This document shows positions 2,363 to 19,298 of a stretch of DNA of 20,694 nucleotides, piece after piece. A program made the position numbers and the translations under genes. The notes under the pieces were generated by a model. That model had not been told where the DNA came from. It was given only the letters and a program-made list of their open reading frames with translations, and searched no databases. The stretch is from a virus. The DNA is taken from IMG/VR virus record IMGVR_UViG_3300042691_048283, positions 1 through 20,694 of that record; one strand, 5' to 3'. Position 1 is the stretch's first letter, and each line of letters opens with the position of its first letter.

Positions 2363-4723
2363 ATGAAAAGATTTAATCCACCATCTGTTAGACAAGAATT
2401 ATCGGATGCTAGCCCAAAACCTATTGTTTTTGAACAAAGAGAGGCTAGACAATTATACATTGTAGCTAATAGTATGTGGCACACATATCCCGATACTCCA
2501 TATAGTCCACAAAGTTTTGTAGACGGTAAATTACAAATTGCTAAATTATGCTCATGCCCACCGGGCACTATTCCATATACCGAATTTGAAAAAAATAATC
2601 CATACTTTGGTACTGGCACTAATTATGGAATAAATCCTTTTGAGCATATTAAAACTAAAATTAATCAAAAATATTTTAATGGATCAGCATCGGAAATAGA
2701 AAAAGAAGATTTATGTATTTGTGAAAAAATTAATACAGTATATAATACATTGGATAAAGAATGTAAATGCATATTTAGAGACACAGATGATCCTGGTGAC
2801 ACCGTGTCGGAATCTGGTGAGTGTCAATGTCCAGATATTAAAATACCATATTATGATATAGTAGATGGTTTAATTGTGAGCAACGCTATATGTCGCTGTC
2901 CAGATCCAGCTGATATTGAAATTGGAGAAGGAGCCAATGAAACATGTGGATGTTTTGATAAATACTATACGGTGCAACCAGAGATCCATACAAATCCGTT
3001 TGCAATAGCTGATTTTCATGAAAGAAAAGCAGCCAACCCAACACTGGTCGAAGGTGAAGAATATATTGATATTTATGGAAATGCTGTTGTTTATGAATGT
3101 GTAAGATTAACACCAACTCCAACTCCCACAGCAACTCTAAAGCCGTCACCAACTCCTAGCATAACACCAACATCAACACCGTTTCCTTGTAGCAAAGGAA
3201 GTTGTTATTACTACTATGCACCAGATGACGACTACGATTGCATAAATGATATATCCGAGCATGATTGCAATATAAGAGATGAAACAGTCAATGGAACATA
3301 CTATCCAGCCTATTTTGACTGTTCCTTATGCGGCCCAGCTAGAACGAAGCCACCAAAACCAACTAAAACACCAACACCGACACCAACACTTACTCCTACT
3401 ATAAGCAAAACACCAACAAGAACTCCTACTCCAACACCAAATGCTGGTAGCGGCAGTGGTAGCGGCAGTGGAAGCGGTAGCGGTAGTGATAGCGGAGAGC
3501 CCCCAACACCGACTCCCACACCAACAATAACGCCATCTCCAAGTCCGGTTTCACAGGCTGTTTGGGAATTTAATTGTGACAATGTTGTTGCTATAATCGA
3601 AGAAAAAGCAGTAAATGGAGGTAAATATATAGATAGCATACATCCAGAAAGAGGTGTAAATGTTGAATTTGATCCTAAAACCGATCCTGGTTGGAAACTT
3701 TCCTTAAAGAAGTGTTGCTGTATTAATCTTGACGGTGCATTAAGAAATATTCCAAACATTTGTGGAACTAATGATTTACCAGGAGAAGAAAACGATTCAG
3801 AATTTATAAAAGCTGGATTAACAGCAGCAGATTGCGAAGAAGGATCAGGAAGCGGCAGTGGAAGCGGTGACGAAGGTAGCGGAAGCGGACCAGATGTTGA
3901 TCCTAACTGTACTTCAGCAAAATTACAAGAATATGCTACAGAGAATAATCATAATGCAATTCTAGATTGTTGCTGCGATAAGGGTAGTGGTATCAAGGGC
4001 AATATTTTAGATTGTGGAGCTGCACTCTCAGGCGAAGAATTGTCGTGCGAAGAAGGAAGCGGAAGCACACCAGCAGAAAGTAGTAGCTCAAGTTCGTCCA
4101 CGACCTCATCTTCATCAAGCAATGGCGGTTCGGAAACACCTACTCCAACACCGACAATCAGCACTACAGAAACTCCAACTCCCACCCCAAGTATTAGTGA
4201 GAGTGAAACACCAACACCAACGCCAACAGCTAGTGAGAGCGAAACTCCAACGCCAACTCCAACACCAGACGCTGGTAGCGGAAGTGGTAGCGGAAGTGGT
4301 AGTGAAGGTGAAACACCAACACCTACTCCAACAATAACCGAAAGTGAAACACCTACTCCAACTCCTACGTGTGACAGCTCAGATGAGGTTTCTAATCTTA
4401 GTATATCCGGATACGGAGATCCATCTTCTGTTACTATGATGCTTAATCCAGGTCTTCCAAGATCATATACTTATATAAATAGCAATAACAATATGGATAT
4501 AAGATATATTACTTATAATTCTTCAGAATCTAAGTGGGAATTAACAATTTATGGATCGTCCTTTAAGTTACGAAGTCCATATGGCGGTGACTATCCTTGG
4601 CCGGTAGAAGGCACAATTACAGCATCTTGGGAAATAATAGATAACGGAGCCGGATCAGGATCAGGGTCTGGCATTGGATCCACTATAGAAATAACCATCA
4701 CAAAAATATCTCCGTGTATTTAA
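2363..4723 (+). CDS. Cys-rich PT/SG-linker virion surface (fibre-like) protein, 786 aa
   Basis: The modular architecture is, in order: N-terminal region 1-60; a Cys-rich region of about 63-246 with spaced CxC and CxCP motifs resembling EGF-type disulfide repeats; PT linker ~249-273; a small Cys module ~274-328; a PT plus (GS)n linker ~328-396; Cys module A (C405, C451-453, C467, C491); a GS linker; Cys module B (C516, C536-538, C551, C562); Ser-rich and PT/GS linkers ~568-672; and a C-terminal domain of about 112 residues ending IS-x-C. Modules A and B share the pattern C-x(n)-CCC-x(12-13)-CG-x(n)-C and look like a duplication. The C-terminal domain is a paralogue of that at 2-541. There is no secretion signal, as expected for a virion protein. 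An extended flexible surface fibre is inferred. The disulfides would have to form outside the cytoplasm or in lysate. Confidence 0.8.
3343..3552 (+). repeat. PT / (GS)n low-complexity linker
   Basis: The codons spell [12 protein letters not shown]-type repeats, then about nine Gly-Ser pairs, then PTPTPT again. The DNA is degenerate (ccaacn and ggtagc/ggaagc units). A minus-strand reading of the same stretch gives a spurious VGVGV and PLPLP open frame. Confidence 0.85.
4129..4371 (+). repeat. PT / [11 protein letters not shown] / GS linker sharing 33 identical bases with 43-75
   Basis: Repeated ETPTPTP blocks are separated by SxSES and a [11 protein letters not shown] segment. Positions 4231-4309 align with 43-121 without gaps and with about nine mismatches in 79 bases. 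The first 33 bases are identical. Confidence 0.85.
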
Positions 4724-4785: not shown

Positions 4786-5001
4786 TTATTCCTGATTATT
4801 AGGAACCGAAACGTTCTTTTTCCTACGACCTCTTGGCTTAACAACACCAAACTTGCGTCTTTGGCGACGAATCATAGCGGTGCTAATATTTTCGCCCGTC
4901 ATTTGACTTAATTTTGCAGCTAGTTCCATATCGCTATAAGAATTAACATTATCTCTAATAAAAGCTTTTTCAGCATCGCTCCATTTTTTATAATTAGCCA
5001 T
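4786..5001 (-). CDS. Small HTH (SANT/homeodomain-like) DNA-binding protein, 71 aa
   Basis: The start ATG at 5001 has an AAGGA box 7 nt upstream (5009-5013), so the longer TTG reading from 5022 is rejected. Residues ~5-50 form a three-helix HTH pattern: W-S-D-A-E-K-AFI at helix 1, SDMELAAKL at helix 2 and TAMIRRQRRKFGV at the recognition helix. A basic tail KPRGRRKK follows. This layout is common in small phage DNA-binding proteins. It is the only leftward gene in the window and diverges from the sigma-factor operon, so a regulatory role at that junction is an inference. A related helical pattern starts the 270-residue protein at 5857. Confidence 0.75.
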   Translation of the reverse strand: MANYKKWSDAEKAFIRDNVNSYSDMELAAKLSQMTGENISTAMIRRQRRKFGVVKPRGRRKKNVSVPNNQE

Positions 5002-5008
5002 TTTTGTT

Positions 5009-5013
5009 TCCTT
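5009..5013 (-). promoter_or_regulatory. Shine-Dalgarno AAGGA (minus strand)
   Basis: AAGGA on the minus strand lies 7 nt before ATG 5001. It fixes the start of the HTH gene. Confidence 0.75.
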
Positions 5014-5015
5014 TT

Positions 5016-5043
5016 TTGACAAGGTGTATTTAGAACATATTAT
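5016..5043 (+). promoter_or_regulatory. sigma70-type promoter for the sigma-factor operon
   Basis: A perfect TTGACA (5016-5021) is followed after 16 nt by TATTAT (5038-5043, five of six consensus bases). Transcription would start near 5050, ahead of ATG 5081 and downstream of the GTG at 5024. This is consistent with early transcription of the phage sigma gene by host RNA polymerase. Confidence 0.6.
5024..5036 (+). promoter_or_regulatory. GTGTAT motif copy 1 (candidate phage promoter)
   Basis: GTGTATTTAGAAC lies 57 nt before ATG 5081. It falls inside the spacer of the sigma70-type promoter, so this copy may be an overlapping second promoter, an operator or chance. Confidence 0.35.
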
Positions 5044-5044
5044 A
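5039..5044 (-). promoter_or_regulatory. Possible minus-strand -10 box for the HTH gene
   Basis: The minus strand reads TATAAT exactly here, which would give a leader of about 30 nt before ATG 5001. No good -35 box is seen at 16-18 nt spacing. The box overlaps the rightward -10, so the two promoters could not be used at the same time. Confidence 0.35.
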
Positions 5045-5080: not shown

Positions 5081-5254
5081 ATGAAAATTGATAACTTTGT
5101 AGAAAGTATATTAAAAGTTACCGCTAGTGACAATCTGGATATCTCTTCAGATTTACAATCTTCTCAAACTAAAAATATTAATGAATTAATAGAGGATGAA
5201 AAAAACAAACAAGTCAACGAAAAAAACGTCGAGCAAAAAACCGAAGAAAACTAA
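5081..5254 (+). CDS. Small acidic protein overlapping the sigma gene, 57 aa
   Basis: ATG 5081 is preceded by GAGG (5066-5069) at 11 nt. A GTG start at 5024 is possible on paper but lies upstream of the predicted transcription start. The product begins MKIDNFVES and ends in a highly charged Glu/Lys/Asn segment. Its last 59 bases overlap the sigma gene in another frame. The family is not recognised. In T4 a small acidic co-activator (gp33) works with the late sigma factor gp55. The location here invites that comparison, but no sequence similarity can be claimed, and the ORF may instead be a leader peptide. Confidence 0.45.
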   Translation: MKIDNFVESILKVTASDNLDISSDLQSSQTKNINELIEDEKNKQVNEKNVEQKTEEN

Positions 5255-5864
5255 AACTGTTGATGAAAACACATTACTTAATGTTATAGATATAATAACT
5301 AAAAAATTAGCGTATAAATTTAAATTTGGATATCATGATATAGAAGATATGCGTCAACAAATAAGTATATTTGCTATAGAAGGTCTAAAAAATTACGATC
5401 ACAAGAGACCTCTAGAAAATTTTCTATGGACTCATGTTAGAAATCGCTTATTTAATTACAAGCGAGATAACTATCAAAGACCGGACAAGCCTTGTTTAGC
5501 ATGTCCACTTTATGATCCTCAGCAAAAGGAAAGCTTTAGCGGTTGCAAGAAATACGATAATAAAAATGACTGTGAATTGTATTCTTCTTGGAATAAGAGA
5601 AACTCTAGTAAAAAAAATCTAATGCATTTAACAACAATCGATGAAGTTAAAAATTATTCTAATGCTTTTAAGGACGATAATAACGAGGAACCATTACTCA
5701 ATAGTATAACGAACCAAGAAATTATTCGTATTTTAGAAGAAAAACTTGTTGATGATTATAGAATAATATACTTAAAACTTAAAAGTGGTAGCAAAGTTAA
5801 TAAAATAGATCAAACTAAGCTACTAAATAAAATTAAAGAAATTATTGGAGAACAACATGAGTAA
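5196..5864 (+). CDS. Phage RNA polymerase sigma factor (gp55-like, sigma70 region 2), 222 aa
   Basis: After a Lys/Thr-rich N-terminus (1-20), residues ~30-95 match sigma region 2: a helix NVIDIITKKLAYKF, then HDIEDMRQQISIFAIEGLKNYDHK and FLWTHVRNRLFNYKRDNYQRP. The second of these is the core-binding helix and the third the -10 recognition helix. Next comes an insertion with four cysteines, C100-x2-C103-x13-C117-x8-C126, that could bind zinc. The C-terminal part (~165-222) is a short helical segment with only a weak region-4 resemblance. The length is close to T4 gp55. It would direct RNA polymerase to phage late promoters. ATG 5196 is the first in-frame start after a stop at 5190; GAGG abuts it too closely, so initiation is probably coupled to the overlapping upstream frame. 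The gp55 assignment is by pattern. Confidence 0.75.
   Translation: MKKTNKSTKKTSSKKPKKTKTVDENTLLNVIDIITKKLAYKFKFGYHDIEDMRQQISIFAIEGLKNYDHKRPLENFLWTHVRNRLFNYKRDNYQRPDKPCLACPLYDPQQKESFSGCKKYDNKNDCELYSSWNKRNSSKKNLMHLTTIDEVKNYSNAFKDDNNEEPLLNSITNQEIIRILEEKLVDDYRIIYLKLKSGSKVNKIDQTKLLNKIKEIIGEQHE
5847..5850 (+). promoter_or_regulatory. Shine-Dalgarno GGAG for the 5857 gene
   Basis: GGAG lies 6 nt before ATG 5857, inside the end of the sigma gene. It favours this ATG over the TTG at 5845. Confidence 0.65.
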
Positions 5865-6669
5865 AAAAAGAGGACAGCTAAGTTTAGATGAAGAAAAATT
5901 TATACAAGATAATTTATCACAGTTATCAGTAGAACAAATAGCAGATTCTCTTAATAGAACTATCGAACCAATTAAAAGATATATAAAAGAAAATAATTTA
6001 TACGCAACAGAAGATACCAAAGAGGTAGAAATATTACGACAAAAACTACACTCTAAAACTTTCTGGAGCGAAATAGAAAGACAGTTTGATAAAGATAGTG
6101 GAGAGTTAGAATATTTTGAAAATACGTGGATAGGACTTATCAGACAGTTCAGAGAGGACGTTCTTCCTGCTGAAGAATTACAGATCAAACAATTTATCAC
6201 TATAGATATTCTAATTAATAGAAGTATGAAAGAACGTAAACGACACATAAGCGAAACTGAAAAATTACAAAAACTAGTAGATAAAGAATATGAAAAACCA
6301 GAAGAGCAACGAGATATTCCAAAATTAGCCAATTTAGAAACTCAACTTAGTTACGCTAGAAATAGTATAGCTAGTTATACAAACGAATATACAAAATTGC
6401 TTAATGAGCAACAAAAAATTAGTAAAGATTTAAAAGCTACTCGTGAACAAAGAATTAAAAGAATAGAAGATGGTAAAAGTTCTTGGATAGGTCTAATTAG
6501 AATGTTAGAAGAAGAGGACGTTAGAGAGAGAGAAGGAAAAGAGATGGAAATATTATCTATGGCCACTGACAAAGCAAGAGAGCATCTATATAATATCCAT
6601 ATATACGCAGATAATAAGGCCGATATACCAATACTAAATAAGGACAGTGTCACAAATCCTAATAATTAA
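5857..6669 (+). CDS. HTH plus coiled-coil protein, possible small terminase subunit, 270 aa
   Basis: It overlaps the sigma gene by 8 nt with its own GGAG box. Residues ~8-48 form an HTH-like unit (LSLDEEKFIQDNL, SVEQIADSL, IEPIKRYIKENNL) similar in layout to the 71-residue HTH protein at 4786. Residues ~95-215 are charged heptad-rich helices, predicted coiled coil. Two copies of SWIGLIR/TWIGLIR occur, near residues ~90 and ~209. An N-terminal HTH with a central oligomerising helical region is the classic plan of phage TerS, which recognises the packaging site for TerL. The gene is separated from terL by the giant gene, so the TerS call is a hypothesis. A transcription regulator is the alternative. 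Confidence 0.6.
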   Translation: MSKKRGQLSLDEEKFIQDNLSQLSVEQIADSLNRTIEPIKRYIKENNLYATEDTKEVEILRQKLHSKTFWSEIERQFDKDSGELEYFENTWIGLIRQFREDVLPAEELQIKQFITIDILINRSMKERKRHISETEKLQKLVDKEYEKPEEQRDIPKLANLETQLSYARNSIASYTNEYTKLLNEQQKISKDLKATREQRIKRIEDGKSSWIGLIRMLEEEDVREREGKEMEILSMATDKAREHLYNIHIYADNKADIPILNKDSVTNPNN

Positions 6670-6676
6670 AAAATAT

Positions 6677-6689
6677 GTGTATAATAAAT
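6677..6689 (+). promoter_or_regulatory. GTGTAT motif copy 2 (candidate phage promoter)
   Basis: GTGTATAATAAAT lies 52 nt before the giant gene start, in a 59-nt intergenic gap. It contains a perfect TATAAT (6680-6685), so host sigma70-type recognition is an alternative, but no clear -35 box is seen. Confidence 0.5.
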
Positions 6690-6728: not shown

Positions 6729-7700
6729 ATGGCCGTATCCCCCGGACTAAATACAGCAAATTGGAATAATCAAGCAGCATGGAATAATTCCAATATTGTA
6801 CTAAACACATACGGATTCGGCAATGTTACAAGCGTTGGTGGAAATGGAGGACCTAGTGCTTATGGAACATACGATCAAACAGGCAATGTTTATGAATGGG
6901 TAGGTGTAAATCCGGGAGCTACACCAGCAACAGTCAATGCTGTCTATAGAGGCGGAGCATGGAACACTAGCGTCAATAGTGCCGCGCCATACAACGGATT
7001 AACTGCTCAATTATCTAGATATTCTTATTTGGCTAGTTTTCGTAGAGCTTTTACAGGATTTCGAATCTCATCTTCACTTACAAATCCCACATATGGTAAT
7101 TTTGTTAATGTTGGTGATATAAATAATGCTTCGGATACTAATGGATACGGTAGTGTTTCTTATACTTATAGAATATCAACATTTCCAATAACTAATGATC
7201 AGTATGTAGAATTTTTAAACGCTATTGCTACAGCGTCATCTGGTTCGTTATTTTTAGTAACAACAGATGTAAGATATGGTATCGCTAGATCCGGAGTAGA
7301 AGGCAACTACGCATACTCTGTTAAAGCTAATATGGGTAATAAGCCTGTTGTATATGTTAACTGGTTCCAAGCCGCTAGATTCTGTAACTGGTTACATAAT
7401 GGTAGACCAATTGGCCCACAAAATAATAGTACTACAGAAGACGGCGCCTATACATTTACCGGAGCGGTAGATGGTAGAAATCAACCATTAATTCCAGCAA
7501 AGAATATTAATGCTTTATATTATATACCAACAGAAAATGAATGGTATAAAGCAGCATATTATAAAGGTGATAGCACAACTGCTGGATACTGGGACTACGC
7601 TACACAAACCGATAACATTATAGAGCTTCCTAACAAGCCAAGACCTTTTCCTATGCCTGTTAGAGCAAATGGTGTCGGAGATGGTCTTTACAATGGATCT
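6729..7700 (+). other. FGE/SUMF1-type module 1, halves in permuted order
   Basis: [12 protein letters not shown] (~46-57), RGGAW (~75) and GFR (~110), normally at the end of this domain, come first. They are followed by VGDINN (~128), [18 protein letters not shown], the [14 protein letters not shown] motif, [15 protein letters not shown] and YWDYATQ, which normally open it. The catalytic cysteine pair of formylglycine-generating enzymes is absent from the RGG-to-GFR segment, so binding rather than catalysis is expected. Confidence 0.8.
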
Positions 7701-10700
7701 CCTATATTTCCAACCCCCACTCCGACCAACACACCAACCAACACGCCAACCATTAGTATAACTCCAACCAACACCCCAACAATTAGTACAACCCCAACTA
7801 ATACTCCAACTCTTAGTGTTTCTCCAACCAATACTCCAACTATAAGTATTACTCCAACAAATACTCCAACAAAAACAACAACACCAACTAATACGCCTAC
7901 TCTTACGGTCACCCCCACACCTACAAGAGCAGTAGTAACTAATTTAGTTGCTCAACAGCGTCAGATTGCTGCTAGATATGGATTATCTGGCACTATAACT
8001 GGTGATGATATAAATACTATTAAATATTTAAGAAATGTTGAAAGAAACCGCGGATTTATTTTGGAATACCCAGAAACACCAACATTTAGAGATAGTTATG
8101 GTAAAGGAACATTTCCAAGATATTGTTTAGGAACGGAAAATAGAGCTAATTATACAAGTCCAACTGATAATTTTCATTACAAATGGATCGGTTCTCCTGT
8201 TCCTGGCGAAGGAGGAAGATGGGTATCTATTCCAGCAAGTGGTCATCCTTGGATTGGAACAATTAGATTAACAACATTACCACCATCACCACCACCCGCA
8301 CCAAGTCAGACACCAACAGCTTCTAGCACACCAATCCCACCCGCACCATTTCCTCCTGGTGTCAATAGAGCTAATTACATGAGAGGTGCTTCATGGAGCA
8401 CCTATTTCGTAACAACAGTTGGTAGTAATGGAGGACCAAGTTCTTATGGTACTTACGACCAAACAGGAAATATTTGGGAAATTGTGGAATCTGTAGATGT
8501 TCCACTAACTCAGAGGGTTGCAAGAGGTGGTGCTAATGGTAGTCCTCCGGATAGAATAACTTCTTTATACAGACAAGTTCTAGATAGCTCATTTAGAGGT
8601 GGCGGAACAGGATTAAGAATCGCCTCTAGAAATAATAGTATTAACTATCCTAATTTTGTTGTTGTTGGAAACCCAGGTAATATTAGCGATACCAGAACAG
8701 GATTTGGTTCTGTTAATTATACATACTATATCGGCAAGTATTCTGTTACAAATTGTGAATATGCTCACTTCCTAAATGCCGTTGCTAAAACTGATACTTA
8801 TGGCTTATTTAATGTTCCAGATGTCAAGATAAATTTAAGTGGCATAAGAAGAGTAGGAAATAGTGGTTCATATAAATATACTATTGAGGAAAACGCTGAC
8901 GATAAACCAGTAAACTTTATATCGTGGTTCCAAGCTGCAAGATACTGCAATTGGCTTCACAACGGCAAACCAGAAGGTTTACAAAATTCTTCCACAACAG
9001 AAGATGGAGCATATACACTAAATGGAATTATTAGTGGAAGCAGAGTAAGTAAAAACTTAACAGCTCTTTATTACATACCAACTGAAAATGAATGGTATAA
9101 GGCTGCTTATTATCAAAACGGTGCTGTAAATAATAATTATTATCTATATGCAACTCAAAGCGACTCTCCTCCACAAATAGCTAATTGTGATACTAATGGT
9201 GATGCTTTATACCGAACCGGTTATTATTGCGCCGATGTTTCTATGTGTCCACAAGGAACTCTATGGACACCAAGAGAAAAATCCAGAGATTGGCACGAAG
9301 TAGCATCGTCTAATAGTGGTCAAGTTCTTGTTGCCGCCGCTAATAATGATTTCTTATATATAAGTAATGATTATGGCGTTTCGTGGACACCGAGAGCATT
9401 CTCGAATACATGGCGTAGCGTTGCTGTATCATCTGATGGAACAACAATGGCTGCTGTAACATCAGCTAGTGTTCTTGATAGAATATACATTAGTAGAGAT
9501 AGTGGTGTCACATGGACTCCAAAAGCAGTTAATAGAGCATGGCGCAGCATATCCATGTCGGGCGATGGAAGAAGAATCGCAACAACAACAAATATTAATG
9601 GACAAATATTTATTAGCTCTAATTTTGGAGAAACATGGTTACCTACTGGACCATTTAAAAATTGGCAAACTGTAACTGTTTCTGCTGATGGATCAACTAT
9701 TGTAGCCCTTGAACAAAATGGTCAAATATATATTAGCACAAATGGTGGAGCAACATGGGTTGCTAGAGAACAGAGCAGAGACTATAGATACGCAGCTATT
9801 TCAGCAGATGGTTCAGTTATAGCAGTTACAGCCCTAAGAGATCAAGTGTACATTAGTAGAGACAGGGGTACTACATGGACAACATTGCCAATTGGTATTA
9901 GACCATGGGTTGGAATTGGAATGTCTCAAAACGCATCAGTTATTTTAGCATTAGCTTATGGACAACAGCCATGGTTAAGCTTAGACTCTGGAGTAACATG
10001 GAGCAACGAACAGATAACAAATCTGTGGAGAAATGCCAGTGTATCGGGCAATGGAAATAGATTATCTATAACTTCTGGCGATGGTAATATATATACAGCT
10101 TATTGTTTACCAATTACTCCAACTCCAACAGCATCTCCAGCTGCAAGCCCAACACCTACTTCAACAGTGACTCCTACAGTAACATCCACTGCTACTCCAA
10201 CAACTACCGCAACGAACACGCCAACTACTACTCCAACAACTACTATAACAGCAACACCAACCTCTACCGTAACTCCTACAGCAACAACGACACCCACAAC
10301 CACACCCACAAACACAACAACACCTACGAATACAGTTTCTCCTACCGTCACCTCTAGTTTGACTCCAACTCCGACTAACACTCCAACTGTTACTCCGACC
10401 GTTCCTGTTGTAAACGCTGCTAATCACAGTCTATGCGGCGACTGGGATGGATTCAATGGTAACGTAACAACCGTTGGTAGTAACGGCGGTCCAAGCGCAT
10501 ATGGAACTTATGATCAAACAGGAAACATATATGAATGGAATGATTTAGATGGAGCAACATCTCTAGATAGTCCGACCTCCTCAAGTAAAGGAATAAGAGG
10601 TGGACACTGGGCCTTTGGTGCTTCAACATCATTGCAAAGAAATGAAGTTTCTAATTATAATATTAGAAATAATAATACTGGATTTAGAGTAGTATCATCT

Positions 10701-13655
10701 GATAATCCATGGAATTTTTCTAATTTTGTAACAGTTGGAGATATTAATAACACAGCCGATTCTAATAGTGGTTATGGAGCAGTATCATACAACTATAGAA
10801 TATCTATATATCCTGTTACGGTTTGTGAATATACTGATTTCTTAAATGCTATAGCCGCAACAGACACATATTCGCTATACGACACCAGAATGGCGGACCA
10901 AAGATGTGGTATTATTAGAACAGGAACATCTGGATCTTACTCGTATTCAGTTAGAGGATCTTATGGCAATAAACCAATGATATGGGTATCATGGTTTGAC
11001 GCCGCTAGGTATTGTAACTGGCTTCATAACGGTAAGCCAGCTGGTAATCAAGACGAAAACTCAACTGAGCAAGGACCATACTCATTAAATGGAGTAACAA
11101 GCGGACCGGCTCCAAATAGAAATCCTTTCGCATCATATTTTGTGCCAACAGAAAACGAATGGTATAAAGCTGCTTACTACAAAGGATCTGGCACTAATGC
11201 TGGATATTGGACATTTGCAACTCAAAGCGATAACTCACCAACTTGCGTTCAAGCTAATACGAACGGAGACGGACCAATTGGATCGCAATATATTTGCAAC
11301 CCAATATTTGTTCCATCTCCAACTCCAACAAATACACCCACTTTAACAGTAACTCCTACAGTTACTAGTACATCAACAACAACTCCAACAAATACCCCGA
11401 CTAACACGGTAACTCCTACCAACACCTCAACTTCTACAGTAACCCCCACAGCAACTGTAACACCTACAGCAACCACAACAAATACTCCGACTTCAACAGC
11501 CACAAGCACACCAACTAATACTCCAACAGCTACAAACACACCAACTGCTACTCCAACAACAACAGTTACCCCAACAAATACATCTACTCCCACAGTTACT
11601 CCAACAAATACTAGAACTCCAACACCTACCCCAGCACCACTATTAAATACTGCGTTTACTATTGGTTATAATTTAAATGGACAGCTCGGTAACGGAACAA
11701 CAAATAGTGCATCAGCCCCACTATTAATTGATTTCGGAAAACAAATTATGGATATTGCAAATGGCTGGGATCATACACTAGCCGTAGCAACCGACGGAAC
11801 ATTGTGGGCTTGGGGCGCTAACACGAGTAGCCAACTCGGAGATGGAACAACAACCTCAGCATTTAGGCCAAAACAGATTGGCACAGACTCTACTTGGGTG
11901 TCGGTCGCTGCTGGTAGAGGATCATCGTATGCTATAAAATCAGATGGTACGCTATGGGCATGGGGAGCAAATGCCAATGGTCAATTAGGAATAAATAATA
12001 GATTAACAGCCACTGTTCCAACTCTAGTAACCGGAACGGGATATAGCTCAGGATGGACACAAATATCTGCTGGTGAATACCACGTAGCGGGTATTATTAA
12101 TAATAGTTCTTTATGGTGCTGGGGATTAAATGGAAATGGTCAATTAGGAGATGGTACAACAAGTCTTAAACAAATTCCGACCAGAATAAACATGCCCAAC
12201 AATGGAGCTGTAACACATGTTTCTGCCGGAAACGTACACACACTAGCTATATCTAGTGGAGTTCTATACTCATGGGGTAACAATACATCTGGTCAATTAG
12301 GAAATAATTCAAGAACAAATAGTCTAGTTCCAGTCCTAGTCAATTCTCAACAGTCTTGGACAACAACAGCAGCCGGATCGTTGTCTTCTTATGCTATTAA
12401 TAGTAATAATATGTTATATGTTTTCGGATCAGGAGACAATGGTAAATTAGGTAATAATAGTACCGGAATAGTATTGGTTCCAACACCACTATCTGGATCT
12501 AATTGGGTCTCGGTTTGGGCAAAGCAAAATAATGCCGGAGCTATTCAATCTAATGGATCTCTCTGGATTTGGGGCGATAACTCTCAAGGTCAGGTTGGAG
12601 ACGACTCTGCTCCTTTTGATCGCTTAACACCAACATTAATTGCGGACTCTCAGAGTCTAAAAGTTGTTTTTGGAAATCTTCACACTTCATTTATAAGAAG
12701 AGTATCTAGAATTGCTCCTAGTCCAACACCAACCTCTACAACAACTCCGACGCCAACCAATACACCTCAGCCAGCGTCCGCAACAACATTATTTAATAAA
12801 GCATCTTGGGCAAGTATTGTTCCACAGCCATATAGAGGGTACTTGGATCAAGCTGCTGATAGATGGAATAACTATATTAACTATAGAGATGATGTTAGAA
12901 ATCTTATAGTAACTCAATTAACAGGTTTTAGTAATTGGAGAGGATTATCGTTAGCTAGTTATAATCCAACAACAGATAATACAGCATCATGGATAGCGGC
13001 TTGTGGACCGAATCAGATCGTTGATATAAATGGAACAGGGGTTCCAGCAGTATGGATACAACCTCTGGACTTTAATGTTTATGTAAATTTACGATATCAA
13101 AACTCATTTAGCGCTGCCGATTGGGTAAATATTATGACCCATGAACTTGGTCATGCTTTAGGCATAGGAACATTCTGGCAAAATAATACAACTATTATAC
13201 AGTTTGGAGGTGTTCCACCAACAAATAATTTTCTAAGTGGATCAGCTTACACAATAACACAAAATACTTATAATTCATTAACCAGCACAACAAGAACATT
13301 GGTTCCTCTAGAAAGTACCGGTGGGGCAGGAACAGCATCGGGACATTGGGAAGATAGTTTCAGATCATCATCAGCCCCCGGATCTTTGGGACAAAACTAT
13401 ATCGGGGTTTCTGATGAATTAATGGTTGGATACATTTCTCCGGGCAGTAGAAGAGTTTTGAGTCAGCTTAGTCTAAAGTGTTTAACAGATTTTGGATTTC
13501 AAGAGAGAAATCCAGGAGCATCCGAAGGAAATCCTGTTTTAGCTTCTAATATTATTGCTATGAGCCAAGCATCTAATGATATTATTAGATTAGATTGTTG
13601 CTTAGATAAAACTATTAAAGATATCAAAAATCTTGGAACACTTAAATTAGATTAA
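6729..13655 (+). CDS. Giant modular virion protein: FGE-type modules, two beta-propellers, metalloprotease; 2308 aa
   Basis: The start is fixed by AAGGAG (6716-6721) 7 nt upstream. Order by residue: FGE/SUMF1-type module 1 (1-324), PT linker (325-399), unknown globular segment (400-517), Pro-rich linker (518-543), FGE-type module 2 (544-838), Asp-box propeller (839-1126), PT linker (1127-1225), FGE-type module 3 (1226-1525), PT linker (1526-1635), RCC1 propeller (1636-1994), short PT linker (1995-2018), leishmanolysin-like protease (2019-~2270) and a C-terminal tail. There is no signal peptide, as expected for a virion component. The binding modules and protease suggest a host-surface adhesin or tail fibre that can cleave a surface protein. 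It lies between the sigma/TerS-like genes and the packaging genes. The PT linkers match those of the fibre-like genes at 2-4723, suggesting a shared set of surface proteins. Confidence 0.85.
7701..7925 (+). repeat. PT linker 1 with 10-residue (30-bp) repeats
   Basis: About six units of the type TPTNTPTxSx are present. Codons differ between units while the amino acids are kept. Confidence 0.85.
8358..9240 (+). other. FGE/SUMF1-type module 2, halves in permuted order
   Basis: It starts with [16 protein letters not shown] and [11 protein letters not shown], then RGGAN and GLRIAS. These are followed by [57 protein letters not shown] and YATQSD. The order matches modules 1 and 3. The RGG-to-GLR stretch differs strongly from theirs. 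Confidence 0.8.
9241..10106 (+). other. Asp-box (BNR/Ycf48-like) seven-bladed beta-propeller
   Basis: Six clear Asp boxes of form YIS-x-D-x-G-x-TW recur about every 40 residues (~877 to ~1088), each followed by a W-R-x-hydrophobic and S-x-DG pattern. A seventh strand set is supplied by the leading GTLWTPR and the final [10 protein letters not shown], a usual ring closure. This fold is typical of sialidase- and Vps10-like binding propellers. Sialidase active-site arginines were not identified. Confidence 0.75.
10107..10400 (+). repeat. PT linker 2, about 98 residues
   Basis: Almost only Pro, Thr, Ser, Ala, Val and Asn are present (TPT, TVT, TNTPT units). The opposite strand reads as open VGVGV frames, which are not genes. 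Confidence 0.85.
10404..11300 (+). other. FGE/SUMF1-type module 3, halves in permuted order
   Basis: It starts [38 protein letters not shown] and GFRVVS. These are followed by [59 protein letters not shown] and YWTFATQSD. It is the closest of the three to free-standing FGE-type proteins known from planctomycetes and cyanobacteria, but with the two halves swapped. Confidence 0.8.
11301..11634 (+). repeat. PT linker 3, about 110 residues
   Basis: TPTNTPT, TVTPT and TATPT units run without interruption between module 3 and the RCC1 propeller. Confidence 0.85.
11634..12713 (+). other. RCC1-type seven-bladed beta-propeller
   Basis: Seven G-x-N-x-x-GQLG-type signatures are present ([78 protein letters not shown]). 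Each is preceded by a G-x-LWxWG strand and a V-x-AG-x-x-H/S-x-A-I motif. This makes a complete ring. RCC1 propellers bind proteins or DNA; here an adhesin role is inferred. Confidence 0.8.
12783..13540 (+). other. Leishmanolysin-like (peptidase M8-type) zinc metalloprotease domain
   Basis: [10 protein letters not shown] at 2138-2147 is the HExxHxxGxx zincin motif. VPLE, then a [12 protein letters not shown] segment, gives a plausible third zinc ligand at His2206. DELMVG supplies a Met-turn candidate at Met2232. [12 protein letters not shown] closes the domain as in M8-like proteins. All key residues appear present, so it is probably active. It could trim host surface proteins during infection or mature the virion fibre. 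Confidence 0.8.
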
Positions 13656-14543: not shown

Positions 14544-15016
14544 TGAATTTAAATGATTTCACTATAATAGTAGATACCAGAGAACAAAAACCCTGGGATC
14601 TGGATCATCGCTCCATAGCCTCCAGAAAATTAGACACCGGAGACTATAGTGTCGAAGGACTAGAAAATATATTTGCTATAGAAAGAAAACAAAGTGTAAG
14701 TGAAATTGCTAATAATATTACAGAAAAAAGATTTGTTGATGTATTGGAAAGATTACAAAAAATACCGCATAGATTTATCTTATTAGAGTTTACACTCAAT
14801 AATGTGCTAGACTATCCTATAGGTTCGACTGTTCCAAAAAAACTATGGAGCAGCATCAGAATCACTGGTAAATATATCTTAAAATATCTTACAGAAATTA
14901 ATATCAAATATGGAATACACACCATCTATTGTGGCAATAGAGAAAATGCCGAAATTGTTGCTTTATCTATAATGAGAAGAATGGTAGAACTATATGGCAA
15001 CGGCAAACAACTTTAA
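14543..15016 (+). CDS. ERCC4/XPF-type nuclease, 157 aa
   Basis: The N-terminus carries the ERCC4 nuclease signature: VDTREQKPW with D11, LDTGDYSVEG with D34, and IERKQSVSEI with E47-R48-K49. These are the metal-binding and catalytic residues of the XPF fold. The rest of the domain follows, with an R-x-x-x-x-LERLQ helix and FILLEF strand. There is no obvious C-terminal helix-hairpin-helix DNA-binding domain, so specificity may come from a partner. It overlaps the preceding gene by one base of stop/start and the terL start by 23 nt. It could resolve branched replicative DNA before packaging, as endonuclease VII does in T4. That function is inferred. Confidence 0.85.
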   Translation: MNLNDFTIIVDTREQKPWDLDHRSIASRKLDTGDYSVEGLENIFAIERKQSVSEIANNITEKRFVDVLERLQKIPHRFILLEFTLNNVLDYPIGSTVPKKLWSSIRITGKYILKYLTEINIKYGIHTIYCGNRENAEIVALSIMRRMVELYGNGKQL

Positions 15017-17030
15017 AATATTTGACGATGCTTGGTTAGGACTTGGGGATATAGACTCCATAGTTGTCCAAAACAATCCTATGATTGGACGAGCTAAACA
15101 GGATATAGAAAGACCAGACTTACATCTACTGAGACTATTGAGAAGCCCTAGATATTTAGGAACAACATGCAAATTATTGTTCGATATAGAACTCCACCCA
15201 ATACAAGTCGTTCTGCTTCAAGAATTCTGGACAACAGCATTTCCTATGTTCGTTGCTACTCGTGGTTTTGGTAAAAGTTTTATACTAGCCTTATACTCTA
15301 TGCTTAAATGTATTTTTGAACCAGGAAGTAAGATTGTTATTGTTGGTTCAGCTTTCAGACAGAGTAAAGTAATCTTCGAATATATGGAAAATATGTGGAA
15401 TAATAGCGCTATATTGAGAAGTATTTTTACCGGAGCAAATGATGGTCCAAGACGAGACGTTGACAGATGTACTATAAGACTAGGCGATAGCTGGACCATA
15501 GCTGTACCACTAGGTACTGGCGAAAAGATCAGAGGATTACGTGCTCATATAATTATAGCAGACGAATTTGCATCAATTAGTCCAGAAATTTACGAAACCG
15601 TTGTGTCTGGTTTCGCTGCTGTTAGTTCTAATCCTATTCAAAATGTCAAAGAGGAAGCAAAAAAACAGGCAATGATGGAAGCTGGTATCTGGACAGATGA
15701 ACTCGAAGATTTACAATCAAAGAAAAATAATCAGGCTATAATTGCTGGAACAGCAGACTATAGTTTTAAACACTTTGCTAGTTATTGGAAGAGATATAAA
15801 GCAATAATAGAAAGCAAAGGAGACGTTAAAAAATTACAAGAAATTTTCAATGGAGAAGTACCAAGTAGTTTTGATTGGAAAGATTATAGTATAATAAGAA
15901 TGCCATACGAACTAGTTCCTAAAGGATTCATGGATGATAAACAAGTTAGTAGAGCAAAAGCTACAATACACACTGGTATATACAACATGGAATATGCCGC
16001 GGTGTTTACCGAAGATAGTGATGGTTTTTTTAAGCGAAGCTTGATCGAAAGCTGTGTCGTTAGTGATACTAAGCCCATATTTATAGCTGATAAAATGGTA
16101 CTATTCGATGTTGCAACAACGGGTAAACCAGATTTACAATATGTTTATGGCGTAGATCCGGCTAGTGAAAAAGATAACTTTAGTATTATAGTACTAGAGC
16201 TACATCCTGATCACAATAGAATTGTTTATTGTTGGACTACTAATAGAACTAATTTTAAAGAAAGACAAAAAACAGGACTTGTAACTGAGCATGATTTTTA
16301 TGGTTTTTGTTCTAGAAAAATTAGAAATCTAATGAAAACTTTTCCACCTATTAGGATAGGTATGGATGCTCAAGGAGGTGGTGTAGCTATCGAAGAAGCT
16401 TTACATGATCCAAATAAAATGACAGAAGGAGAACTATTAATTTGGCCTGTTATTGACAACGACAGACCCAAAGATACTGATGACAAAGCCGGATTACATT
16501 TGCTAGAATTGGTGCAATTTGCTAGAGCCGATTGGACTAGCCAAGCAAATCATGGTTTGCGTAAGGATCTTGAAGATAAAGTATTATTATTTCCAAGATT
16601 TGATAGTGTAAGTTTAGCTTTAGCTATGGATAAAGAAAATAAAGATATCATGGAAGCAGATCTTAACAATCTATACGACAGTGAAAGTGAATGTATATTA
16701 GAAATAGAAGAATTAAAAAATGAATTAACCACTATAGTTATGACTCAAACTAGTGGAGGTAATGGAGCTAGAGATAGATGGGACACACCCGATATCAAAA
16801 TGCCCAATGGTAAAAAGGGTAAGCTTAGAAAAGACCGATATAGCGCATTATTAATCGCAAATATGTTAGCTAGACAAATAAATAGAGCAACTCAACCGGT
16901 TGCTTTTGATGTAATAGGATCAAATCTAAGAAATCAAACAGATACTAAATCTAGTGGGGATTTGTATAAAGGACCAAGCTGGTTCACCAACGCTGCGAAT
17001 GATAATATATATAAAGGGATATATCGCTAA
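14994..17030 (+). CDS. terL: Terminase large subunit, 678 aa
   Basis: TerL is the ATP-driven motor and nuclease that packages phage DNA through the portal. The ATPase has a Walker A ATRGFGKS (88-95, with K94) and a Walker B IIIADEF (D190, E191 catalytic). The RNase H-like nuclease has GVDPAS (D388), IGMDAQGGG (D458) and KDRYSALL (D614), the expected three acidic residues. The length is at the long end of the usual 400-700. The start overlaps the ERCC4 gene by 23 nt without a strong ribosome-binding site. Packaging genes follow immediately, in the usual order terL then portal. Confidence 0.93.
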   Translation: MATANNFKIFDDAWLGLGDIDSIVVQNNPMIGRAKQDIERPDLHLLRLLRSPRYLGTTCKLLFDIELHPIQVVLLQEFWTTAFPMFVATRGFGKSFILALYSMLKCIFEPGSKIVIVGSAFRQSKVIFEYMENMWNNSAILRSIFTGANDGPRRDVDRCTIRLGDSWTIAVPLGTGEKIRGLRAHIIIADEFASISPEIYETVVSGFAAVSSNPIQNVKEEAKKQAMMEAGIWTDELEDLQSKKNNQAIIAGTADYSFKHFASYWKRYKAIIESKGDVKKLQEIFNGEVPSSFDWKDYSIIRMPYELVPKGFMDDKQVSRAKATIHTGIYNMEYAAVFTEDSDGFFKRSLIESCVVSDTKPIFIADKMVLFDVATTGKPDLQYVYGVDPASEKDNFSIIVLELHPDHNRIVYCWTTNRTNFKERQKTGLVTEHDFYGFCSRKIRNLMKTFPPIRIGMDAQGGGVAIEEALHDPNKMTEGELLIWPVIDNDRPKDTDDKAGLHLLELVQFARADWTSQANHGLRKDLEDKVLLFPRFDSVSLALAMDKENKDIMEADLNNLYDSESECILEIEELKNELTTIVMTQTSGGNGARDRWDTPDIKMPNGKKGKLRKDRYSALLIANMLARQINRATQPVAFDVIGSNLRNQTDTKSSGDLYKGPSWFTNAANDNIYKGIYR

Positions 17031-17033
17031 ACT

Positions 17034-17046
17034 GTGTATCTAAATA
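17034..17046 (+). promoter_or_regulatory. GTGTAT motif copy 3 (candidate phage promoter)
   Basis: GTGTATCTAAATA lies 48 nt before the portal start, in the only gap between terL and portal. It matches copies at 6677 and 19272 in sequence and position. Confidence 0.55.
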
Positions 17047-17081: not shown

Positions 17082-19298
17082 ATGCCAAGAAAAAAGACCA
17101 AAAATGAACTGATAGAGAAATCTGAGGCGGTTGTGCCCACAGAAGCCTATGTTACATGGGAAGATGCTAATCTTGACGATAAAAGGAGCGCTCTGAAAGA
17201 AGCTAGCAGGGGCTTAGAAGAGTTTGGATTAGTAAATAAAGCATCAGCAGCTACTACTGGTAGATATAGAGATTTTTCTAATCTGGTTGGCCCAATTAGT
17301 GGTCGTCCAGGACTTACAAGAAGCGATTACGATTACTTTAGACCTGATGAAAGTGTTCCTAATCAGATCAAATATATATTCAATAATGCAGATTCTATCT
17401 ATAATAGAGTCGGATTAGTAAAAAATGTTATAGATCTTATGGGTGATTTTGCTTGTCAAGGCATCCGATTAGTACATCCAAATAAACGAATCGAAAAATT
17501 CTATAGAAAATGGTTTGATAAAATCCATGGAGAAGAAAGAAGCGAAAGATTTCTTAATAATTTATATAGAATTGGTAATGTGGTTATTAATAGACAAACG
17601 GCTAAGATTAGTTTAAAGGTAGCCGAAAATCTTTATAGAACAACAGCTAGTCCAGACATTATAGTCAATACAGACGAGGTTCCTGTTGAAAAAAGAGAAA
17701 TACCTTGGAAATATACTTTTATAGATCCTATTTGTGTTGATGTTGTTGGAGGACCATTATCATCGTTTGTTGCTGATAAAAATTATGCCATAACTATGCC
17801 AGCATCTTTACGCAAACTAATAAATGCTCCAAAAAATGATGCTGAAAGAGAAATTATAAATCAATTACCATCAGCAATAATAGAAGCTGCAAAAAGTAAA
17901 AAACCATACCTACTCGATCCATTAAAAACTCTTGTTTTTCACTATAAAAAAGACGACTGGAAAACATGGGCATATCCTATGATCTATAGTATAATGGATG
18001 ATATTAATATTATAGAAAAATTAAAGTTAGCAGATCTTGCAGCTCTAGACGGAGCTATTAGTAACATTCGTATATTTAAACTTGGTAGTTTAGAACACAA
18101 AATTGCCCCAACGGCAGCCGCTGCAAATAAACTCAGTAGCATACTACAAAATAACGTTGGCGGAGGAACAATGGACCTTGTTTGGGGACCAGATATTGAG
18201 CTTATAGAGAGCAAAACCGCTGTTCATCAATTCCTTGGAGAAGGTAAATATACTCCACATTTGAATAGCGTTTATGCTGGATTAGGTATTCCTCCAACTC
18301 TGACAGGCACATACGGAGCTGCTGGAACCACTAATAACTTTATTAGTCTAAAAACACTAACCCAAAGACTACAATATGGTAGAAAAGTATTAACTAATTT
18401 TTGGAAAAAAGAAATCGAGATTGTTCAGAAAGCAATGGGTTTTAAATATGCTGCTAAAATAGAATTCGATAGAATGGATTTAAGTAATGAAGAAGCAGAG
18501 AAAGCATTATTAATTCAATTAGCAGATAGAAATGTTATAAGCGACGAACTATTACAAAGAGTATTCGGATTCGATCCTGATACAGAAAAGACAAGGCTAA
18601 ATAGAGAAAACAGAGAAAGAGACAGTGAAAGAATGGTGCAAAAAGCCGGTCCATTTATTGATGGTAATTTTGAAAATAGTATGAAAAAGATGGCGTTACA
18701 GTTGGGACTAGCAACACCAAGTCAGGTCGGAATAGAATTAGAACCAAAGAAAAAAGGCGAGATGAACGCTGTCGAGGTCAAAACAGCATTTGCCCCGACA
18801 CTACCAAAATTTAATTCTGCTCCACAAATAAATAATACAGAAAAATTACCAGGACAACCAGGACAAGGAAGACCAAAAAATAGTAAAGATTCAACAAAAA
18901 GAAAAACCAAAGAGTTTTCTCCACAAACAGGAGCATCGTTGAATTTATGGGCTTTGTCAGCACAAGATAAAATTAATGATATACTAAATCCAACTTTATT
19001 AGAATTCTTCAATAAGAAAAATATGAGAAGTTTATCTAGTAGTGAATATTCAGAATCAGAAATTATAAAAACTAAAGTTCTTTTCTCACTTAAACCATTT
19101 GATAACATAACTGAAGAAATTGTATCAAATGCTTTTGCAAACGTAGAAAGCGATACATCTCAACAGTTATATGCTCAATATAGAATATTTATTAAAAATC
19201 TGGCTAATAATATAGATAGAGAATTAACAGCAGACGAAGCCAGAATTACTAGAGCATATTTCTACGACGCGGTGTATCAGAATATATCCCAACCCTAA
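17082..19298 (+). CDS. Portal protein, 738 aa
   Basis: The portal is the dodecameric channel at the head vertex. Features typical of portals are an early YDYFRPDES region (~84), a helix with VKNVIDLMGDF, the wing and stem segments with a Pro-rich GLGIPPTLTG motif (~400-409) followed by a helix beginning in NNFISLKTLTQRL, and a core end RLNRENRERDSERM (~505). The C-terminal ~230 residues form an extension: a Pro/Gly/Lys-rich linker (~587-612), then helices. It is longer than most portals (400-550 residues). It follows terL directly and precedes the protease. No Shine-Dalgarno sequence is seen; repeats at 17046-17078 fill the leader. The assignment rests on context plus recognisable portal patterning. 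Confidence 0.8.
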   Translation: MPRKKTKNELIEKSEAVVPTEAYVTWEDANLDDKRSALKEASRGLEEFGLVNKASAATTGRYRDFSNLVGPISGRPGLTRSDYDYFRPDESVPNQIKYIFNNADSIYNRVGLVKNVIDLMGDFACQGIRLVHPNKRIEKFYRKWFDKIHGEERSERFLNNLYRIGNVVINRQTAKISLKVAENLYRTTASPDIIVNTDEVPVEKREIPWKYTFIDPICVDVVGGPLSSFVADKNYAITMPASLRKLINAPKNDAEREIINQLPSAIIEAAKSKKPYLLDPLKTLVFHYKKDDWKTWAYPMIYSIMDDINIIEKLKLADLAALDGAISNIRIFKLGSLEHKIAPTAAAANKLSSILQNNVGGGTMDLVWGPDIELIESKTAVHQFLGEGKYTPHLNSVYAGLGIPPTLTGTYGAAGTTNNFISLKTLTQRLQYGRKVLTNFWKKEIEIVQKAMGFKYAAKIEFDRMDLSNEEAEKALLIQLADRNVISDELLQRVFGFDPDTEKTRLNRENRERDSERMVQKAGPFIDGNFENSMKKMALQLGLATPSQVGIELEPKKKGEMNAVEVKTAFAPTLPKFNSAPQINNTEKLPGQPGQGRPKNSKDSTKRKTKEFSPQTGASLNLWALSAQDKINDILNPTLLEFFNKKNMRSLSSSEYSESEIIKTKVLFSLKPFDNITEEIVSNAFANVESDTSQQLYAQYRIFIKNLANNIDRELTADEARITRAYFYDAVYQNISQP
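19272..19284 (+). promoter_or_regulatory. GTGTAT motif copy 4 (candidate phage promoter)
   Basis: GTGTATCAGAATA lies in the last codons of the portal gene, 42 nt before ATG 19314. Confidence 0.5.

Follow-up and report, generated by a model that had tools for sequence, protein, structure and literature searches.

T4 gp55, the late sigma factor of phage T4, is reported to have a sigma2 domain and, in addition, a helix-loop-helix by which the template strand is held (PMC7892883). Among the promoter-specificity subunits of other phages, AR9 gp226 is reported to retain a counterpart of the first sigma4 helix (PMC9209446). Cysteines in a sigma factor are described for the metal-responsive CorE, in which a CXC motif lies between sigma2 and sigma4 and a cysteine-rich domain forms the C-terminus (PMC8999054, partial text). 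A survey of jumbo phages reports two sigma types in its group 2, one minimal and one RpoD-like, together with gp33, and the available portion of that survey holds no mention of a cysteine-bearing sigma type (PMC7824862). The literature searched, which included few subscription journals and was available in part, yielded no phage sigma factor into which a metal site is inserted and no GTGTAT late promoter of a phage. Here we present a solid case for a phage sigma factor variant that is widespread, has not been described as far as we searched, and has a probable metal site and a promoter box of its own.

The window analyzed is a stretch of viral DNA of 20,694 nucleotides (IMG/VR record IMGVR_UViG_3300042691_048283), in which the sigma factor gene with its four-cysteine module occupies 5196..5864 on the forward strand (222 aa; ATG at 5196, TAA at 5864). 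This open reading frame is intact, and its coordinates and frame are as given in the initial annotation, which had also described clear region 2 helices. The latter are borne out by profile and fold searches alike. The Pfam model Sigma70_r2 (PF04542) matches residues 36-92 of the window protein at E = 3.3e-5, its score of 24 bits standing at the gathering cut-off of 24, and is matched by 37 of 37 aligned family members, the window protein included. Together with the AlphaFold2 model, this match places region 2 at residues 24-92 (5265..5471, +), with helices at 24-41, 49-64, and 73-92. All 37 members also match phrog_1740 (RNA polymerase sigma factors; best E 1.2e-5) and the NCBIfam model of the sigma70-ECF superfamily, TIGR02937 (best E 2.9e-6); the window protein itself matches the latter at 2.4e-4 with 20.8 bits, under the cut-off of 42.9. 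The AlphaFold2 model of the window protein has a mean pLDDT of 74.7 and a pTM of 0.45, with block pLDDT values of 85-96 in region 2 except for 69 at residues 41-50, and fold searches with this whole-protein model listed mostly sigma factors, with scores that were modest even at their best (E 0.013 for Foldseek, Z 7.9 for VIA). We conclude that the product of this gene is very probably a sigma factor of the sigma-70 family.

Directly after the last region 2 helix, behind a well conserved RP-x-x-PC link, lie the sole cysteines of the window protein, spaced C100-x2-C103-x13-C117-x8-C126. A segment of this pattern at residues 100-126, immediately following region 2, had been proposed from the window alone, and it is now confirmed as a conserved insertion. 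The module as we delimit it spans residues 96-141 (5481..5618, +) and comprises the four cysteines and a conserved helix (W132, R135, N136, K139, K140, and N141). Two outcomes that would overturn the proposal had been named beforehand, loss of the cysteines in close homologues and a full region 4 in profile searches, and neither came about. All four cysteines are kept in 56 of 56 distinct proteins, in 110 of 110 proteins of a larger set, and in each of 124 distinct family cores, that of the window among them, which represent 393 of 393 sigma loci, several of them on the same contigs. Across the 124 cores, the pattern is C-x2-C-x(7-13)-C-x8-C, with a gap between C103 and C117 of 13 residues in 95 cores, 9 in 18, 10 in 5, 11 in 3, and 7 in 3. 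Behind C126, residues W132, N136, and K139 are present in 110/110 proteins and R135, K140, and N141 in 109/110. These counts for W132-N141 use all 110 proteins, while residues scored as invariant in alignment A3 are flattered near positions 139-143: alignments A2 and A3 were made from the 110 distinct proteins minus the short L052, L238, and L059, thinned at 93% identity to 84, and L183 and L157, which are without the exact K-K-N-type anchor motif, were then dropped.

Five scans of the viral collection, three of them with divergent members as queries, returned no family member without the cysteines; each scan retains the 80 top-scoring loci and starts from exact matches to short family peptides, and a relative that had lost both would escape it. 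No significant second copy of the module was present in other frames of the loci examined. A profile search of PDB sequences for a known zinc fold yielded two unrelated matches (E = 0.2 and 0.61), and AlphaFold2 models the region with moderate confidence (block pLDDT 65-78 for residues 91-140), placing a helix at 127-138. Judged from the aligned sequences, the conservation of the cysteines is far beyond chance. Fixed cysteines around a loop of variable length are as expected of a metal site, and on this basis we regard metal binding by the four cysteines as likely; the metal would be a single ion, most probably zinc.

A cysteine site of this kind could also act as a sensor, through an iron-sulfur cluster or a thiol/metal switch that toggles late transcription in the manner of CorE-type factors, whose CXC motif and C-terminal cysteine-rich domain respond to metals according to the available text (PMC8999054). 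The window protein, however, possesses only four cysteines and no C-terminal cysteine-rich part, and the invariance of the cysteines in every member examined suggests a fixed structural site, so that a sensory role appears distinctly improbable.

No convincing region 4 had been seen in the initial annotation, and neither profile nor fold searches have since produced a recognizable one. No region 4 model is present among all 24 Pfam families matched at E <= 1 by the 37 members, or among the 25 families listed of 63 for 82 C-terminal fragments. In the whole-protein AlphaFold2 model, residues 141-170 are poor (pLDDT 47-50) and the three C-terminal helices score 73-90; predicted alone, the C-terminal fragment forms a helical domain with a mean pLDDT of 82.2 and block pLDDT values of 77-97 across the last three helices. 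The three-helix domain of the fragment model corresponds to residues 167-221 (5694..5858, +); its fold is not assigned, and it is possibly a shortened region 4. Foldseek found no significant match for the fragment (best E 2.7), and the single sigma factor on the VIA list, 9a7s_A (71 residues, Z 4.6, rmsd 4.3), ranked under an unrelated match (Z 5.1), though proteins can be related without appearing on each other's fold lists. Many of the whole-protein fold alignments extend to sigma region 4, but with an rmsd of about 20 Å over two domains this shows little. A shortened region 4 is nevertheless possible because the TIGR02937 alignment, in which window residues 37-193 correspond to model positions 16-128 of 165, enters the start of region 4, not its end. 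From sequence and models together, we tentatively read region 4 as missing or shortened.

The initial annotation termed the protein gp55-like. This description holds only as an analogy, in that the sigma factor seems in outline to work like gp55. Kinship with gp55 beyond region 2 is not supported. The profile of late sigma transcription factors phrog_234, which we take to be the PHROG of gp55, is matched by one of the 37 members, at E = 0.03; T4 gp55 itself was not run against this profile. The profile comparison with gp55 that had been suggested gave overlap in region 2 only, with hhalign against seven gp55-type proteins returning 58% probability (E 9.8e-5 as a single comparison) over 40 columns, all within region 2. 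These seven proteins are without such a cysteine module. The C-termini of the family vary, and that of T4 gp55 carries a sliding-clamp-binding motif. Profiles of gp45 and gp33 (PF02916 and PF16805) matched 0 of 16 relatives, whose records may be incomplete and whose genes are perhaps too diverged, and T4 was positive with both. The T4 late box TATAAATA is not enriched, with 3 forward and 5 reversed occurrences in 449 regions. A divergent gp55 orthologue working with gp33 and the gp45 clamp would fit the similar size of the protein, a region 2 without recognizable region 4, and late-type promoters without a -35 element. Nevertheless, the near absence of late-sigma PHROG matches, the confinement of the hhalign overlap to region 2, the missing gp45 and gp33 profiles, a promoter box that differs from TATAAATA, and the lack of the cysteine module in the seven gp55-type proteins compared all count against it; we consider orthology very improbable and reject it. 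A phage-encoded polymerase as partner of the sigma factor was also considered and set aside, as the phage RNA polymerase beta' profile (PF04998) matched none of 11 relatives and, in a control set that included no phiKZ-type phage, matched 14 of 14 cellular controls and nothing in T4.

Words that might mark the promoters of these phages were sought by comparing the upstream regions of genes (greedy ORF picks) with the same regions reversed, with no motif assumed. In seven large relatives, GTGTAT occurs at 42 sites, versus 4 reversed, within 38-62 nt upstream of 625 gene starts, which is 19-fold over the genome average; its other 59 anagrams reach 16 occurrences at most. Together with the overlapping GGTGTA, it is one of the two most enriched gene-anchored hexamers among those seen at least eight times in these genomes. 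GTGTAT ranks 1st to 8th of the 1851-2498 hexamers seen in each of the seven relatives, the divergent G016 and G008 included, and in an earlier pass over four genomes the top 25 words listed for G012 contained only the overlapping GGTGTA, not GTGTAT. Its 18 single-base neighbors, counted in four genomes and the window, are near parity except for GTGTAA (11 vs 3). In the aligned sites, G is preferred before the box (68%) and A+T after it, and the logo contains no -35 signal and no other conserved box. Longer upstream words, TATAGATA among others, also turned up.

The extended element that had been noted as GTG-TAT is thus real, and in the window it precedes both the gene at 6729 and the portal gene. 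One copy, at 6677..6682 (+), lies 52 nt before the 2308-aa gene starting at 6729; another, at 17034..17039 (+), lies 48 nt before the portal gene starting at 17082. A third copy, at 19272..19277 (+), lies within the last part of the portal gene and precedes the gene at 19314 by 42 nt. The window contains 16 GTGTAT on both strands, only four of which are at sites described here (5024, 6677, 17034, and 19272).

A set of 83 loci with 449 upstream regions gave a weaker signal, in which GTGTAT ranks 1 of 3919 with 38 regions versus 13 reversed and lies upstream of some gene in 37/83 loci (14/83 reversed) within the stretch examined. Of its 39 sites in this set, 33 are 45-59 nt before the start, and the reversed word clusters too, with 10 of 15 at 30-34 nt. 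This test draws partly on the same contigs as the genome tests, many of its sites are likely orthologous, and it is not independent of them. GTGTAT is not enriched in the control phages, which were partial: three T4 stretches (99,002 bases) contain 1 vs 0 reversed (rank 425), and 50 kb of MaeS, half of that phage, contain 0. In the phage literature GGTGTAT was met once, as part of a sigma-70 promoter predicted in Pseudomonas phage pf16 (PMC5587285), which we take as a coincidence.

The genes behind this box were compared with those behind host-type promoters across 167 orthologous groups present in at least three genomes. GTGTAT is found before a virion-cluster gene of 174 aa in 7/7 genomes, a trypsin-like protease in 5/6, and the portal orthologue in 5/8 (window included), the portal being without the box in 3/8. 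The gene after the portal carries the box 33-44 nt upstream in 4 of 7 related genomes, its orthology to the window gene at 19314 having been judged by eye. TTGACA-type promoters are absent from all four groups. That class precedes an RIIA-like protein (5/6), a UvdE-type endonuclease (3/7), an Ogg-type glycosylase (5/6), and small unknowns, and three orthologous groups among those listed have mixed promoter types. Since GTGTAT is also found upstream of NrdB-like and PhoH-like genes, and of endonuclease-like genes (by eye), its class is not purely structural, and that the genes in it are late is something we infer. We also noticed in passing a recurring GCCGATA in the spacer of TTGACA-type promoters (G009, G012, G010, and G003), which may represent a second phage regulatory element; GCCGAT occurs 13 times in sense versus once reversed in the seven genomes, 6.5-fold over background.

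The sigma operon itself begins with a host-type promoter at 5016..5044 (+), composed of TTGACA at 5016 and TATTAT at 5038, with GTGTAT at 5024 in the spacer. A TTGACN-15/19-TANNNT promoter lies upstream of the small ORF and sigma gene in 63 of 82 loci, compared with 16 reversed and a shuffle average of 2.5. Of the loci with this promoter, 38 of 63 have GTGTAC (31) or GTGTAT (7) within it, located in the window in the 5022-5037 region, and autoregulation by this route is possible. The small ORF that follows (5081..5254, +; 57 aa) overlaps the start of sigma out of frame and has a counterpart at the same place in 77/82 loci, compared to 9.7 on average and at most 18 of 82 in shuffled upstream DNA. 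Most versions of it are 45-65 aa long, most begin 106-136 nt ahead of sigma, and the consensus retains the stretches "S-x-L" and "K-x-i-a-e-l-l"; at one locus (L063), a sequence resembling it stands in frame as the sigma N-terminus. The product of this ORF is possibly a partner or regulator of the sigma factor.

Downstream, the next gene (5857..6669, +) overlaps sigma by 8 bp, and its N-terminal part has a weak match to a D5-like transcriptional regulator (phrog_323, E = 6.4e-5). A second weak D5-like PHROG match at 4786-5022 (-; E = 1.4e-5) lies on the other side, so that the two flank the sigma operon. This arrangement raises the alternative that GTGTAT is bound by another phage regulator, such as the D5-like proteins beside sigma, and that the sigma factor reads a different promoter; the occurrence of GTGTAC or GTGTAT inside the host-type promoter of the sigma operon could be read in the same way. 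GTGTAT, however, stands alone in the aligned sites with no second conserved box, no gene-anchored element other than the TTGACA class is stronger, and TAT with A+T behind it, at the end of a box, is the kind of sequence that region 2 recognizes. We therefore consider binding by another regulator unlikely, and assignment of the GTGTAT promoters to the sigma factor itself probable.

Further along the window are the terminase large subunit (14994..17030, +; phrog_2, E = 6e-23) and the portal protein (17082..19298, +; phrog_2739, E = 1.5e-10). The sigma gene lies upstream of a terminase-portal cluster in the window and in G009 and G003, where the portal was assigned by orthology and the terminase by size and order. 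Positions 6729-13655 form a single ORF of 2308 aa with TPTPT linkers between repeated domains and a HELGHALG motif near its end. We presume that its repeats resemble folds of the sulfatase-modifying-enzyme type and RCC1-like repeats, and that the HELGHALG motif is metalloprotease-like. Positions 2363-4723 hold a 786-aa cysteine-rich ORF with long TPTPT and SGSGSG stretches.

Relatives of the sigma factor are encoded by 471 IMG/VR stretches, as found in one profile-seeded scan. Two short contigs from metagenome-assembled genomes (MAGs), L157 and L158, in alphaproteobacterial and Flavobacteriales bins, also encode family members; these are probably phage contigs in the bins and are at most a hint to the host. 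Searches with tblastn against 50,697 phage records returned nothing for the window protein or a divergent member, and one insignificant match of 25% identity for a third member. The longest contigs bearing the sigma family are 200-238 kb, and the nearest named terminases among the 12 listed of 41 records have 22-26% identity. Taken together, the large contigs, the distant terminases, and the lack of a tblastn homologue place the family in large phages that have no close relative among the records searched. With 471 stretches on one side and no convincing homologue in 50,697 records on the other, a common phage group seems to have its own late-gene switch.

Our best explanation of these data, which we hold as a whole to be somewhat likely, is a late sigma factor, encoded by a family of large tailed phages not yet in culture, that serves -10-only promoters and carries a metal module at the place of region 3.0; for this explanation we infer the metal, the assignment of the sigma factor to the box, the timing, and the contact with the promoter. 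The sigma factor would be made early from its host-type TTGACA/-10 promoter, along with the small overlapping ORF, and would bind the host RNA polymerase core through region 2. The polymerase would then be directed to promoters before the virion genes that have no -35 element and only one -10-like box, (G)GTGTAT with A+T behind it. One metal ion, most likely zinc, held by the four cysteines would fold a compact module where region 3.0 would sit, and this module and the conserved basic helix would probably help to hold or read the upstream GTG, replacing the missing -35 recognition. The GTG would occupy positions -15 to -13, the bases that lie close to region 3.0 and to the end of region 2.4 in ordinary sigma factors. 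Contact between module and GTG is attractive because the module follows the -10-reading helix just where the GTG would lie. The position of the module would allow promoter contact, as would the richness in G+T of the upstream part of the box, but neither says more than that, and the family shows too little variation in module or box for covariation to be used. Holding of the template strand, as by the helix-loop-helix of gp55, would be a second possible role for the module.

The sigma factor could also direct late transcription from GTGTAT while its metal site is structural or binds a partner, be it the polymerase, the product of the small ORF, or an anti-sigma factor, and never touches DNA. 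Conserved cysteine knuckles are often mere folding aids, the length of the C103-C117 loop varies, and the small ORF overlaps sigma in 77/82 loci, all of which would suit such a site. On the other hand, the basic, near-invariant W-x2-RN-x2-KKN behind the last cysteine looks like more than packing, and there is no known partner. We give this reading a substantial chance, somewhat short of even. The most specific version of promoter contact, in which region 2 reads TAT and the module reads GTG, replacing regions 3.0 and 4, so that one box of 6-7 bases would suffice with no clamp or gp33-type coactivator, is offered tentatively.

Were the preferred explanation of a late sigma factor with -10-only promoters correct, this would be a naturally compact promoter system, consisting of one small sigma factor and one box of 6-7 bases with no -35 element, and thereby a test case for how much of a sigma factor is needed. 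Provided that it functions with ordinary polymerases, it might also be turned into an orthogonal expression tool, and the GTGTAT box allows candidate late genes to be predicted in these uncultured phages.

In conclusion, the sigma factor described here shares features with several known systems and differs from each of them. Like AR9 gp226 and phiKZ gp68, it is a phage promoter-specificity subunit with a sigma2-like part; those proteins serve phage-encoded multisubunit polymerases, whereas no such polymerase was detected in 11 relatives of the window. It has region 2 homology to the ECF and sigma-70 family (TIGR02937 and PF04542), with the TIGR02937 match reaching into the start of region 4, but differs from that family in its inserted cysteine module, in having no recognizable helix-turn-helix end of region 4, and in promoters without a -35 signal. 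Like T4 gp55, it is a short phage sigma factor with a sigma2 domain and probably serves late promoters that have a -10-like element. Unlike T4 gp55, it has no late-sigma profile kinship, gp33 and gp45 are not detected in 16 relatives, its box is GTGTAT rather than TATAAATA, and it possesses the four-cysteine module. As for the cysteines themselves, the window protein has C-x2-C and C-x8-C pairs rather than the CXC of CorE, and no cysteine after residue 126; like CorE, it carries its cysteines between sigma2 and the C-terminal part, and CorE, as described in the available text, is the nearest precedent that we have met for cysteines in a sigma factor.
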